A model generated the notes under the pieces. It had not been told where the DNA came from, made no database searches, and saw only the letters and a list, made by a program, of their open reading frames with translations. A program made the translations under genes and the position numbers. Of a stretch of 64,000 nt of DNA, positions 57,748-62,979 are shown in pieces; positions within the stretch are counted from its first letter, which is position 1; the number at the start of each line of letters is the position of its first letter. This stretch comes from Thermococcus sp. 21S7. GTDB taxonomy: Archaea; Methanobacteriota_B; Thermococci; Thermococcales; Thermococcaceae. The stretch is taken from assembly GCF_012027615.1 (NCBI RefSeq), contig NZ_SNUT01000006.1:1-64000 (forward strand). Reading direction: 5' to 3'.

Positions 57748-58075
57748 ATGAGGAGGGAGTACCAAACCCATCCATAGGGCCAAAGTTAGGAGCTTTGGTT
57801 TTGAGGAGCTGCTGGGTGAAATCCTGAAGGAGGGTCTCTTCTGGGCGGCCCTCGGTCGGCCGTCGGAGGTCATGCCGTTTCTGAGGGGGAAGCTTTTGGG
57901 CAACGGCATCGGCGTGGACAGAATGCGCAGGGAGTACTTGGAGTACCTGCTCGACGACCTGGAAAGGTTCTACAAGAGGGTCTCATGGAGCGACGAGATT
58001 GACGAGCGGCACTGGAAGGCGTTGAAGTCATTCCACAGGGACATAGTCTCGGTGATTTCTTCTGGGAGGGCTTAG
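57748..58075 (+). pseudogene. Small protein gene with a frameshift near its start
   Basis: A promoter-like region (AGTACAAATACTT) and GGTGATT precede ATG 57748 (MRREYQTHP, stop after nine codons). From about 57760 another frame reads TKPIHRAKVRSFGFEELLGEILKEG, continues WAALGRPSEVMPFLRGKLLG and ends SVISSGRA at 58075. Shifting by one base near 57761-57765 would join both to a protein of about 108 residues. Only the ATG at 57872 could start the downstream part without the shift. The gene has normal codon use, so the damage is recent or an error. Function unknown. Confidence 0.5.
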
Positions 58076-58093
58076 CTTTTTAACCCCTCTTCC
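58072..58093 (+). repeat. 22-bp direct repeat, copy 1
   Basis: Begins TTAGCTTTTTAACCCC and ends TCTTCC; identical to 59575-59596. It overlaps the stop codon of the small gene. Beyond the identical part both copies continue with related sequence (CCTGCTCC...CAGG here, CTACTCC...CAGG there). Confidence 0.85.
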
Positions 58094-58106: not shown

Positions 58107-59423
58107 TTATTGCCTTCTCATTTTCACCAACCACCCGATAAGGAGCAGTGAGAAGACCGCCACGAGCAGGCTTAACCAGATGTTTTCTGTTTGGTTCTCT
58201 GGTAGCTTGATTGTTTTAACGTCATTCCCGTTGAAGTAGGCTAACTCTTTCCCGTTCGAGAGCAGACAGCCGTTGCCGCAATCGGCAAGGGTAACGTTAA
58301 AGGGGAGTTTGAAGGTGTTCCCACCATAAAGCAACAGGGTGCCGTTAATCGTGACGTTCTTGCCGTTTAGCTTCAGTGGAGCTTTGATGACTTGCCTCCC
58401 CTCAAAAACAATCTGGGGATAATTTCGCCGACAGGTGGCCATGACGTTGGTCTCGTTGCTCATTTTGACAACGCCCCTGGAGACGAGGAAATAGGATAGG
58501 GTTTTAGCCTTGTCATAAAATCCTCTCGAAGAGCTAAATAGTCTCCAGTACCTGTACTTTCTCACGACCCAGTTTCCATTGTAGCTCCCCAAAAGTTCGA
58601 GGGAAACGTTCTCGTCTAAAGGAATTGAGTCCAGAGGAATGATTTTGTAATCGCCGGTGGTGTTTACGATCGCCAGGTAGAACTTCAACGTTGATACGTA
58701 GGGCAGTCCCATCCAGCTACCCAGCAGGGTTGCAAAATGGGTGCCGTTGAAGCACGCCTCTGACCACTTTGCAGAGAGGTTCCCGAACGTGATGTTTTTA
58801 ACCCGGATTTCCCCGTTGGAGAGGGTTACGAGGCGGAGGCTTGTTAGCCCTGTGCGAAAATCCGTGTAGCCGAGGAGATAGCCGTGTGGGACGACCTGGA
58901 GGTTGTCCGCGTAGCGTTTTGAATGGAAGAGAACCGTGGACCAGCCTCGGTCTTCGCCCGGAAGCTTAAGGATTGAGCCGTTGACTATTGCGTACCAATC
59001 GTAGCCGGCCATCTGACAAGCGTCCCACGGCTGAAAGAGGAGGTAAAACTCACCGTTCCAGTAAATGTAGAGATCGTCTCCACAGTCCGTTACCCCGTTG
59101 AAGTCTCCTAAATGATGGAGCTCGCCGTCATAAACGTATAGCTGAACGTCTGGCGCGGAATATATGTCCGACAAATTTCGATACATGAGGACTCTCTTTC
59201 CGTTGGAGTGTATGAACGTGAGGTTCAGAAAAGTTGCATTTAAGAGCTTAAACCCTCTGCCCGGTTCGAAGAGCCAGAGCTGAGTTGTGTTGTTGGTGAA
59301 GCGAGTGAGAATTAGAAAACCGTCCTGATAGTGGGCCATTCCAGTAATTCCGAGGGGACTGGCTACGGTGTGAGGGGAAAGCAGAAGAATTAAAAAGAAA
59401 AGTATGTAAATACGTTTCTTCAT
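58107..59423 (-). CDS. Membrane-anchored extracellular protein, function unknown
   Basis: A 438-residue protein with a signal peptide (MKKRIYILFFLILLLSPHTVAS) and a C-terminal membrane anchor (NIWLSLLVAVFSLLLIGWLVKMRRQ). The body consists of repeated strand pairs with many NXT/S sites (HYQDGFLILTRFTNNTT, GDDLYIYWNGEFYLLF, SNGKELAYFNGNDVK), suggesting a beta-propeller. No enzyme motif. A TATA-like sequence lies at about 59511-59523. The gene is framed by a 22-bp direct repeat and may have been inserted as a unit. Confidence 0.75.
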   Translation of the reverse strand: MKKRIYILFFLILLLSPHTVASPLGITGMAHYQDGFLILTRFTNNTTQLWLFEPGRGFKLLNATFLNLTFIHSNGKRVLMYRNLSDIYSAPDVQLYVYDGELHHLGDFNGVTDCGDDLYIYWNGEFYLLFQPWDACQMAGYDWYAIVNGSILKLPGEDRGWSTVLFHSKRYADNLQVVPHGYLLGYTDFRTGLTSLRLVTLSNGEIRVKNITFGNLSAKWSEACFNGTHFATLLGSWMGLPYVSTLKFYLAIVNTTGDYKIIPLDSIPLDENVSLELLGSYNGNWVVRKYRYWRLFSSSRGFYDKAKTLSYFLVSRGVVKMSNETNVMATCRRNYPQIVFEGRQVIKAPLKLNGKNVTINGTLLLYGGNTFKLPFNVTLADCGNGCLLSNGKELAYFNGNDVKTIKLPENQTENIWLSLLVAVFSLLLIGWLVKMRRQ

Positions 59424-59574: not shown

Positions 59575-59596
59575 TTAGCTTTTTAACCCCTCTTCC
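59575..59596 (+). repeat. 22-bp direct repeat, copy 2, probable promoter of the C/D sRNA
   Basis: Identical to 58072-58093. It contains TTTTTAA (59580-59586) about 25 bp before the C/D box RNA candidate, so this copy probably supplies its TATA box. The 389-base gap 59424-59812 otherwise holds the promoter of the minus-strand gene, the sRNA and the operator of the aldehyde dehydrogenase gene. Confidence 0.8.
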
Positions 59597-59608
59597 CTAC
59601 TCCTTCAG

Positions 59609-59662
59609 GGATGATGAGGGAAGTTTCGTCCGAGCGGTGAGGAAACTCGCATGGGCTGACTG
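59609..59662 (+). ncRNA. Candidate C/D box guide sRNA (2'-O-methylation guide)
   Basis: Box C ATGATGA (59611-59617), 12-nt spacer, box D' CCGA (59630-59633, relaxed), 3 nt, box C' GTGAGGA (59637-59643), 12-nt spacer AACTCGCATGGG, box D CTGA (59656-59659). This 12/3/12 layout is that of archaeal C/D RNAs. The D guide is complementary over ten bases to CCATGCGAGT, present near position 50 of Thermococcus 16S rRNA as I recall that sequence; the methylated base would be the U of CCAU. Transcription probably starts from the TATA in the upstream repeat. Confidence 0.65.
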
Positions 59663-59752
59663 CCTCTTCTGTTCTCCCACATTTTCCTTTTGGAACCCTA
59701 TCCTCCCGGGAGGTTGGTGTCCATGAAAACAGTTTCATTTAAAGTAATCCCA

Positions 59753-59812: not shown

Positions 59813-61330
59813 ATGCTCGAACTGAAGCACGAAATCTTCAAGGATATATTCCGGGTTGGGGACGATGGAGTGGTGGAGTTCGCCACGTATTCAGCTGGAA
59901 GGTGGGTCTTTGGGGAGAGCTTCATCGAGGTCAGAAGTCCGATAAACAATGAAGTCATCGCAAGGGTTTCAAAACTGAACGGGGAACAGCTTGATGAGGC
60001 CATTGATGCAGTCCATACAAAAGGAAGGGAGGCCATAAGAAACTTTCCCGGAGAAAAAAGGATAAGGGCGTTTTTAAAGGCTGCCCAGCTCATGAGAGAG
60101 GCATTCGACGATTTCACCAAGGTGTTAATGCTCGACGCTGGAAAGCCCCTGAGCAATGCCAAGGGTGAGGTCACGGCAACAATCGAACGTCTGGAAAAGA
60201 CAACGATGGAGTCAAGGAGACTTCTAGGAGACTACATTCCCGGAGACTGGAGTGAAGAGACACTTGAAAGCGAAGGAATTGTAAAGAGGGAACCCTATGG
60301 GGTGGTCCTAGCCATAAGTCCGTACAATTATCCTCTCTTCATATCCGCCGCAAAAGTTATTCCAGCACTGCTCAGCGGAAATGCCGTTCTGCTTAAGCCC
60401 GCATCACTCGACCCGATTGCACCGCTCTTATTCATAAGGGTTCTCGAACTCTCCGGGCTTCCAAGAGAGAGCTTTGCACTTCTGACCATAGCCGGCAGAG
60501 ACATGGACAGGATAGTGGCAAACAAGAGGATTAGGGCGATAACATTCACGGGAAGCACTGAGGTTGGAGAGCACCTTCTCAAAACCGGGGGAATAAAGGC
60601 ATACCACATGGAGCTCGGCGGAAAAGACCCAGCGATAGTTCTGGATGACGCGGACCTCAAAACAGCCGTAGAAAAACTCATCAAGGGAATGGTAAGCTAC
60701 TCCGGGCAGAGATGCGACGCCATAAGGATGGTCTTTGCAGAGGAAGAGATATACGAGAATCTCAAGGACATGCTCGCGGAGAGGCTCAAGGGAATCGACC
60801 CCAAAAATCCGCTCGAAGATGAAAACGCCATGATGGGGCCGCTGATCGATGAGAAAAGTGCAGCGACAATTGAAGAGCTCTATCGGGATGCCGTTGAAAA
60901 AGGCGCAAAGCCTCTGACAGAATTCAAGCGCAGAGGAAACTACGTGTGGCCGGTTCTCCTTGAGGTCACAAAGGAGACACTTCCCAAGCTGAGGGCATTC
61001 CAAGAGGACGTGTTCGGCCCGCTGACGCTTTTAGTCAAGGTCAAAAATGAAGACGAAGCCGTCGAGCTGGCGAATTCCTCCCGCTTTGGCCTTGATGCGG
61101 CAGTCTTCAGCACAAATGATGCCAGAGCAAGGAAAGTCGCAAGAAGGCTTGAAGTTGGGGCAGTATTCATAAACGAGTTTCCGAGACACGGCATCGGATA
61201 CTATCCATTTGGAGGGATGAAAGACAGCGGAATCGGAAGGGAAGGAATAGGTTACTCCATTGAACAGTTTACCACAACAAAAACAATAGTCAGGAACTAC
61301 AGGGAGTACGGGGTGTGGGAGTACATCTGA
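59813..61330 (+). CDS. gapN: GAPN-type aldehyde dehydrogenase (non-phosphorylating glyceraldehyde-3-phosphate dehydrogenase family)
   Basis: A 505-residue NAD(P)-dependent dehydrogenase with Asn172 (SPYNYP), Glu267 (HMELGGKDP) and catalytic Cys301 (SGQRCDAI). It closely follows archaeal GAPN of Sulfolobus in DAGKPLSNAKGEV, GDYIPGDWSEETLE and the ending FPRHGIGYYPFGGMKDSGIGREGIGY. GAPN oxidises glyceraldehyde 3-phosphate straight to 3-phosphoglycerate. Its company of amino-acid-type aldehyde dehydrogenases and the shared operator leave another aldehyde substrate possible, especially if the genome has a second gapN. Confidence 0.75.
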   Translation: MLELKHEIFKDIFRVGDDGVVEFATYSAGRWVFGESFIEVRSPINNEVIARVSKLNGEQLDEAIDAVHTKGREAIRNFPGEKRIRAFLKAAQLMREAFDDFTKVLMLDAGKPLSNAKGEVTATIERLEKTTMESRRLLGDYIPGDWSEETLESEGIVKREPYGVVLAISPYNYPLFISAAKVIPALLSGNAVLLKPASLDPIAPLLFIRVLELSGLPRESFALLTIAGRDMDRIVANKRIRAITFTGSTEVGEHLLKTGGIKAYHMELGGKDPAIVLDDADLKTAVEKLIKGMVSYSGQRCDAIRMVFAEEEIYENLKDMLAERLKGIDPKNPLEDENAMMGPLIDEKSAATIEELYRDAVEKGAKPLTEFKRRGNYVWPVLLEVTKETLPKLRAFQEDVFGPLTLLVKVKNEDEAVELANSSRFGLDAAVFSTNDARARKVARRLEVGAVFINEFPRHGIGYYPFGGMKDSGIGREGIGYSIEQFTTTKTIVRNYREYGVWEYI

Positions 61331-61399
61331 CCTTTTCAGGAGTTCTCTCTTTTCAGATATTTTTGTAGTAGTCAAGCACTTCTGTTTAACTTAAGTGCT

Positions 61400-61423
61400 T
61401 TTGTTTACACAAAATGTTTAAAT
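61400..61423 (+). promoter_or_regulatory. Operator/TATA block of the second aldehyde dehydrogenase
   Basis: TTTGTTTACACAAAATG followed by TTTAAAT (61417-61423), one base different from the block at 59753. With one more T upstream it forms TTTTG-TTTACA-CAAAA. The ATG at 61471 lies 47 bases after the block. Confidence 0.7.
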
Positions 61424-61470
61424 TCCTCGCGGGGATAGTTATATCGAGCAGAGGCCCAGGGGGTGACCCG

Positions 61471-62979
61471 ATGCCCAAGGATGTATTAGAGGAATTGGAA
61501 CTGTCAGAGGTCAATTCTGGAGTCTTCTACGGGGAATGGATGCCCACCGATGGGAGGGAGTTAATATCCTCTCATTCCCCCATAGATGGAAAAGAGATTG
61601 CAAAGGTCGCAATCGCAGGGATAGAGGACTATGAAGCTGTTATCAAAAAGGCGCAGGAATCGTTTTGTGTCTGGAGCGAAATTCCCGCACCGGAGAGGGG
61701 ACAGATCATCAGGGAGATTGGAGACGAACTGAGGCAAAAGAAGGAAGCACTGGCAAGACTGGTTACCCTTGAGGTCGGAAAGATACTGACCGAAGGCAGG
61801 GGAGAAGTCCAGGAGATGATAGACATCGCGGACTTTGCAGTCGGTCTTTCGCGGCAACTCTATGGGCTTACGATCGCAAGCGAGAGGAAAGACCACTTTC
61901 TCTGCGAGAGGTGGCATCCCCTCGGCCCGATAGGTGTTATTACAGCCTTTAACTTCCCCTGTGCGGTGTGGTCGTGGAACGCGTTCATAGCGGCCGCAGT
62001 CGGCGATGTGGTTGTGTGGAAGCCATCAACGAAGGCCCCTCTGACCGCAATAGCAACCACCAAAATCGTCAACAGCGTCCTTGAGCGCCACGGCCTTCCG
62101 CCGATATTCTTCCTTGTAACCGGCAGAGGTTCTACCGTCGGCAACTGGATGGCGGAAGACAAGAGGCTGCCGCTGATATCTTTCACCGGCTCGACCGCAA
62201 CAGGGAGAAAGGTGTATGAGAAGGTCGCAAAGCGCATTGGAAGGGCAATACTCGAACTCGGCGGGAACAACGCAGCTATAGTCAGCGATAAGGCGGACAT
62301 GAGGATTGCGCTCAAGGGAGTCGCTTTTGGAGCCCTCGCAACTGCCGGACAGAGATGTACAACAACCCGCCGCTTAATTCTGCATGAAAGAATCTACGGC
62401 GAGTTCCTGGACAAGCTGATAAAAGTGTACAAGGGCGTGAAAATCGGCAATCCATTCGAGCCGGATACGCTGATTGGGCCTCTAATAGACGAAGAGGCCG
62501 TTAAGAAGTACGAGGAGGCCGTAGAGAGAGCAGTTGCAGAGGGAGGCAGGATTCTCTATGGCGGAAAGAGACTGGAGGGCTGCTACGTTATGCCCACGAT
62601 AATCGAAGCGCACCCGGATATGGAGGTAGTGAGGGAAGAAACATTCGCTCCAATACTCTATGTCTTCAAGTACTCCACCATCGAGGAGGCCCTTGAACTC
62701 AACAACTCGGTTCCACAGGGTCTCTCTTCTGCAATATTCACGAACGACCTGAGGGAAGCGGAGTACTTCCTAGCCCATTCCGACTGCGGCATAGCCAACG
62801 TAAACACGAGCACCGCTGGAGCGGAGATAGGCGGAGCGTTCGGAGGGGAAAAAGACACCGGGGTCGGAAGAGAGGCGGGAAGTGACGCGTGGAAGTTCTA
62901 CGCAAGGAGGCAGACTGCAACTGTGAATTACAGTGAGGACCTCCCTCTTGCACAGGGGGTTAAATTTGATATTGAATGA
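61471..62979 (+). CDS. Aldehyde dehydrogenase of the ALDH7 (alpha-aminoadipate semialdehyde) family
   Basis: A 502-residue enzyme from ATG 61471 behind GGGGTGA; an upstream in-frame ATG lies in the promoter. Asn161 (AFNFPCAVWSWN), Glu262 (LELGGNNAAI) and Cys296 (AGQRCTTTRRL) are in place. LGGNNA, ERWHPLGPIGVITAFNFP and EETFAPILYV mark ALDH7/antiquitin, which oxidises aminoadipate semialdehyde (piperideine-6-carboxylate) in lysine breakdown. Eleven bases separate it from the next dehydrogenase, so both are in one operon. Substrate is inferred from family. Confidence 0.82.
   Translation: MPKDVLEELELSEVNSGVFYGEWMPTDGRELISSHSPIDGKEIAKVAIAGIEDYEAVIKKAQESFCVWSEIPAPERGQIIREIGDELRQKKEALARLVTLEVGKILTEGRGEVQEMIDIADFAVGLSRQLYGLTIASERKDHFLCERWHPLGPIGVITAFNFPCAVWSWNAFIAAAVGDVVVWKPSTKAPLTAIATTKIVNSVLERHGLPPIFFLVTGRGSTVGNWMAEDKRLPLISFTGSTATGRKVYEKVAKRIGRAILELGGNNAAIVSDKADMRIALKGVAFGALATAGQRCTTTRRLILHERIYGEFLDKLIKVYKGVKIGNPFEPDTLIGPLIDEEAVKKYEEAVERAVAEGGRILYGGKRLEGCYVMPTIIEAHPDMEVVREETFAPILYVFKYSTIEEALELNNSVPQGLSSAIFTNDLREAEYFLAHSDCGIANVNTSTAGAEIGGAFGGEKDTGVGREAGSDAWKFYARRQTATVNYSEDLPLAQGVKFDIE

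Follow-up and report, generated by a model that had tools for sequence, protein, structure and literature searches.

The C/D sRNAs of the Thermococcales, as known from Pyrococcus and from the sR series of T. kodakarensis, share C, D', C' and D boxes, 12-nt guides, a 3-nt spacer and an rRNA target with a short element that an earlier note picked out of 64 kb of Thermococcus DNA (the whole stretch analysed, hereafter the window). This locus raises the question of whether it is a guide RNA of that class and, if so, which bases its two guides address. We are highly confident, from comparisons with the host's own rRNA and with related genomes, that it is an archaeal box C/D sRNA whose D guide is predicted to target U52 of 16S rRNA; as such, it very probably directs sugar methylation of one 16S rRNA base in Thermococcus-type archaea.

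Layout and conservation of the sRNA

The sequence at 59607-59662 (+) reads AGGG-ATGATGA-GGGAAGTTTCGT-CCGA-GCG-GTGAGGA-AACTCGCATGGG-CTGA-CTG (Table 1). Boxes C (RUGAUGA) and D (CUGA) lie near the two ends of the RNA and both guides are 12 nt long, as is characteristic of archaeal box C/D sRNAs (about 12 nt each), while the D' and C' boxes each depart by one base from the consensus and are both kept in relatives. The D' box had earlier been described as relaxed; CCGA is indeed one base off the consensus, though it is the usual form in the Thermococcaceae, where it is found in 29 of 36 distinct copies (CTGA in 4, CAGA in 3).

When the window was searched for the strict C-N12-D'-N3-C'-N12-D pattern, with 2 mismatches tolerated, a single match was returned, at 59611-59659 (+) and with 0 mismatches; 100 dinucleotide shuffles of the window, used as a control, yielded 0 matches. 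The 12/3/12 layout claimed for this locus was recovered with every element in its proposed place. A looser pattern had 5 matches in the entire 2.37-Mb genome, in which the same pattern reversed had 0. The single-strand fold of the sRNA is unremarkable (z -1.22). Its conserved terminal stem has about 2 pairs. A CRISPR-repeat match at 59593-59622 was rejected as chance (19 bits against a cut-off of 37).

Table 1 Features of the sRNA locus (window coordinates)
Feature	Position	Strand	Basis
TATA-like promoter element, TTTTTAA	59580..59586	+	conserved block amid drifting flanks, 43 distinct upstream stretches
Box C/D sRNA (predicted)	59608..59661	+	extent by conservation: columns mostly invariant, 43 distinct stretches; copies in 86/94 Thermococcaceae genomes
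Box C, ATGATGA	59611..59617	+	sequence, pattern match, conservation
D' guide GGGAAGTTTCGT, 12 nt; top candidate target 16S 345-355, A349	59618..59629	+	weak
Box D', CCGA	59630..59633	+	sequence; comparison of copies
Internal spacer GCG, 3 nt	59634..59636	+	sequence; comparison of copies
Box C', GTGAGGA	59637..59643	+	sequence; comparison of copies
D guide AACTCGCATGGG, 12 nt; predicted target 16S 49-58, U52	59644..59655	+	pairing with 16S
Box D, CTGA	59656..59659	+	sequence, pattern match, conservation

Using 59605-59664 as the query (E 0.001 or better), we identified matches in 86 of 94 Thermococcaceae genomes, representing 6 of 6 genera, and in 73 of the 74 genomes of good quality (completeness of 90% or more, contamination of 5% or less). 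No match above threshold was found in the other 8 of the 94, 7 of which are less than 90% complete, the exception being G037 (96%). Across 43 loci kept from a set of 50 as distinct in the 40 nt upstream, boxes and guides were nearly invariant and the flanks drifted on both sides of 59608-59661. Since the conserved part comprises just the RNA and its TATA-like box, we count this conservation in favour of a C/D sRNA. A pattern running from C' through the D guide to box D was found in 84 of the 115 genomes of a phylum sample, comprising 84 of 94 within the Thermococcaceae and 0 of 21 genomes placed in the class but outside this family (none for the reversed pattern); as this pattern requires guide letters near those seen here, a diverged guide outside the Thermococcaceae would escape it.

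Guide targets in rRNA

The D guide forms ten unbroken Watson-Crick pairs with positions 49-58 of the host's own 16S rRNA, where its ten-base complement CCATGCGAGT is present (the gene reads GCCATGCGAGTC at 48-59), with a computed duplex energy of -18.6 kcal/mol. U52, the U of CCAU, is the base that faces position 5 of the guide, counted upstream from box D. It corresponds to E. coli U56 by way of the motif CATGC, which starts at 54 in rrsB and at position 50 here; the MAFFT pairing with E. coli 16S is wrong around 46-60 and was not used for this purpose. The earlier note, which had placed a ten-base pairing near position 50 and named the U of CCAU as the base concerned, was right on both counts in the host's own 16S sequence, and together with the conservation across the family this bears out its assignment of the RNA to the archaeal C/D class.

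To extend the comparison, 13 relatives were tried, of which 10 yielded both rRNA genes and three did not, making 11 genomes in total. The 10-bp pairing was kept in all 11, each guide being compared with its own rRNA, so that complementarity to rRNA with the target base five positions from the box, as expected of the class, holds throughout. The mean score of this site was 10.05, followed by 7.14 for the runner-up, and 51 of 20,000 shuffles of the guide columns attained 10.05. For the single guide, an unbroken 10-bp match anywhere in 16S and 23S arose in 926 of 100,000 shuffles, which is rare, yet not beyond doubt; matches at 10 or more of the twelve positions were common (147 of 1000).

The D' guide, for which the earlier note saw no sure target, has only a weak best candidate. 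The highest mean score over the 11 genomes (7.05) fell on 16S 345-356, GCGAAACCTCCG, facing A349, which aligns with E. coli A364. In the host's own genome this pairing consists of seven pairs (one of them G-U), an A opposite C, and then three further pairs. Of 5000 D'-guide shuffles, 22% attained 7.09 anywhere in rRNA. Inside two neighbourhoods around helix h5 of 16S rRNA the rate was 0.4% of 5000, in a region chosen after the match had been seen; with the whole-rRNA rate of 22%, this makes the assignment a lead and not a result. We consider A349 a tentative assignment that may well be correct, held at somewhat less than even confidence.

A slightly more doubtful reading is that the sRNA has one working guide, D on 16S U52, and that D' is an orphan without an rRNA target or has a target other than rRNA. 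The shuffle rate over whole rRNA favours this, as do the mismatch at one position of the D'-16S pairing in all 11 genomes and the frequency of orphan guides in the class (as cited in PMC7994747). Against it, conservation of the D' core at 59619-59628 equals that of the D guide (the edge bases 59618 and 59629 vary), suggesting that some constraint acts on the D' guide. A target among other stable RNAs also finds little encouragement, as no convincing sense-strand match was found in SRP RNA, RNase P RNA or the 30 of 44 tRNA loci scanned (both strands, core region, with one shorter locus taken whole). A strong-looking match at the RNase P locus (L191+), on the strand opposite the gene, was dropped, as was one at a tRNA locus (L134+). 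Within rRNA, 23S positions 123, 109, 179, 824 and 940 were set aside for their lower scores over the 11 genomes. Also set aside was 23S 3019, which came top (7.09) in the scan of the host's own rRNA only and falls in a part of the 23S end that varies from genome to genome.

The pattern of the mismatch bears on a further alternative. Positions 59622-59623 are AG in 61 of 61 loci of the same genus (some from the same genomes) and GA in 17 of 17 loci of other genera, in which the D'-16S mismatch is consequently shifted by one base. With GG the 16S pairing would be repaired and its computed energy lowered to -19.7 kcal/mol, against about -13 as found; GG is absent from the 129 loci read. Such a pattern could be understood if the D' guide serves 23S A2042 (GCGAAATTCCTT), alone or with 16S A349: AG and GA both pair with the UU of the 23S site (one A-U, one G-U), whereas opposite CC in the 16S site each gives one G-C and one mismatch, and A2042 has the second D' mean score, 6.59, close behind A349. 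We nevertheless regard this as unlikely. The 23S pairing continues with a further mismatch and two or three G-U pairs, computed duplex energies at the 23S site scarcely distinguish the two dinucleotides, and the AG/GA switch, having been seen once, at the genus split, amounts to a single event.

Promoter and genomic neighbourhood

The TATA-like box lies 22-28 bases upstream of the sRNA, is conserved and is followed by a C run. The RNA would be expected to start near 59608, which is consistent with T. kodakarensis, where the TATA box and the start are a median 23 bp apart (PMC4247193). Among C/D genes surveyed in six archaea, no more than about 20% are cited in PMC7994747 as having a TATA-type motif, so the sRNA would join a minority with its own promoter; we infer that it is transcribed as a free-standing gene.

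It is flanked by a minus-strand gene for a 438-aa protein (58107-59423), for which searches of Pfam (E 0.001) and NCBIfam gave no match, and by an aldehyde dehydrogenase gene (59813-61330, +), the first of a tandem pair spanning 59813-62979. The suggestion that the locus is a regulatory k-turn element or a chance motif and no guide RNA is highly implausible: a number of sRNAs predicted close to 5' ends could instead be k-turns with a cis-regulatory function (PMC4247193) and this one lies about 150 bases ahead of the aldehyde dehydrogenase start, but its guides are conserved as well as its boxes, its neighbours change (a close relative of the first aldehyde dehydrogenase adjoins it in just one other of the loci compared, L013), and its layout is not expected by chance given the shuffled controls.

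A 22-bp direct repeat, TTAGCTTTTTAACCCCTCTTCC, lies on either side of the 438-aa gene, at 58072-58093 and 59575-59596. Its right copy is the sRNA promoter, and its left copy overlaps the end of a 67-aa ORF (57872-58075) that directly precedes the sRNA in most of the same-genus loci compared. Two other genomes (loci L192 and L193) have a homologue of the 438-aa gene and the same doubled promoter, and another homologue, judged by eye, lies near the sRNA in L194 (G012:C1:253600-255700). On this arrangement, the 438-aa gene looks like an insertion that doubled the sRNA promoter.

Known sRNAs, helix h5 and a possible bridging role

No Rfam family was found at cut-off for the sRNA locus or for 16 orthologous loci. 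The best match, sR28 (RF01136), reached 34.8 bits (E 1.4e-07), under the gathering score of 39. The two RNAs are alike in having the same boxes, a partly similar D' guide (GUUUCG) and the internal GAGCGGUGA; they differ in the D guide, which implies a different target. Another C/D sRNA of the same genome (L081, G000:C2:203860-203909, -) has the same internal CCGAGCGGTGAGGA with different guides, and the two perhaps derive from an old duplication. An H/ACA guide RNA of family Pab19 was also noted just upstream of the 16S gene (L001:3123-3227, -; 89.9 bits against a cut-off of 55).

In genome G012, which we take to be T. kodakarensis KOD1, the sRNA copy lies at 254604-254656. In T. kodakarensis 54 C/D RNAs have been verified (PMC4247193), 61 putative ones are given in PMC9014305, and 46 are cited for Pyrococcus in PMC7994747. 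Among the circular RNAs of Table 1 in PMC9014305, those on either side of this copy are sR05 (116 kb) and sR13 (280 kb); as it lies between them, the sRNA may be one of sR06-sR12, which are absent from that table. The same paper reports a terminal stem of at most 2 pairs for 16 of 17 non-circular C/D RNAs; the conserved stem of the present sRNA is about that size. Strings of the sRNA sequence had no match in the literature searched, and no paper joining Pyrococcus, U52, 16S rRNA and O-methylation was found there; as most subscription papers and all supplements lay outside these searches, the absence of a match does not show that the sRNA is unpublished, and it is possibly already listed in published supplementary tables.

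RNAs of this class are 50-70 nt long and fold their C/D and C'/D' motifs into k-turns and k-loops, to which L7Ae, Nop5 and fibrillarin bind. Those of the present sRNA would bind the same proteins. Once the D guide had paired with 16S 49-58, fibrillarin would add a methyl to U52 (E. coli U56) at its 2'-OH. The D' guide would most likely pair, with one mismatch, with 16S 345-355, placing a methyl on A349 (E. coli A364). By hand-counting on the Rfam SSU model, the strands of h5 are 48-50 and 52-54 with 339-344 (GCC and UGC with GCAGGC). The D duplex spans five of the six paired bases in the 5' strand, and the candidate D' duplex starts one base past the 3' strand. Some 290 nt of 16S sequence separate the two sites, the D' site not being significant over whole rRNA. 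Because they lie on or beside the two strands of h5, one sRNP could hold both sides during 30S assembly. We infer the methylation, the D' target and this bridging role from sequence.

Pairs of this kind have been described for sRNAs such as sR15 and sR17 of N. equitans, in which, as in the candidate here, two guides address distant, structurally adjacent rRNA sites (PMC4644070, Table 3), and an RNA-chaperone role has been proposed in that paper for sRNAs with such paired sites. What sets the present case apart is its helix, h5 in the 5' domain of 16S rRNA, for which that table has no entry, and a D' contact that is imperfect and a candidate only. It is conceivable, if somewhat unlikely, that the sRNA clasps both sides of h5, the D contact being perfect and the D' contact kept short of perfect pairing throughout the family (AG or GA, never GG), either for release and the closing of h5 or since D' also serves 23S A2042.

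In summary, the sRNA is an ordinary, very well conserved gene of a known type, with a candidate target for its second guide. Should the two guide sites not both hold, it would be a well-conserved housekeeping guide missed by Rfam cut-offs. The analysis adds a family-wide prediction of 16S methylation at U52, which belongs to a long-range 5'-domain helix, and offers A349 as a second site open to testing. Should both sites hold, the sRNA would provide, in a genus with good genetics, a clean case for archaeal C/D sRNAs aiding rRNA folding by holding distant strands.
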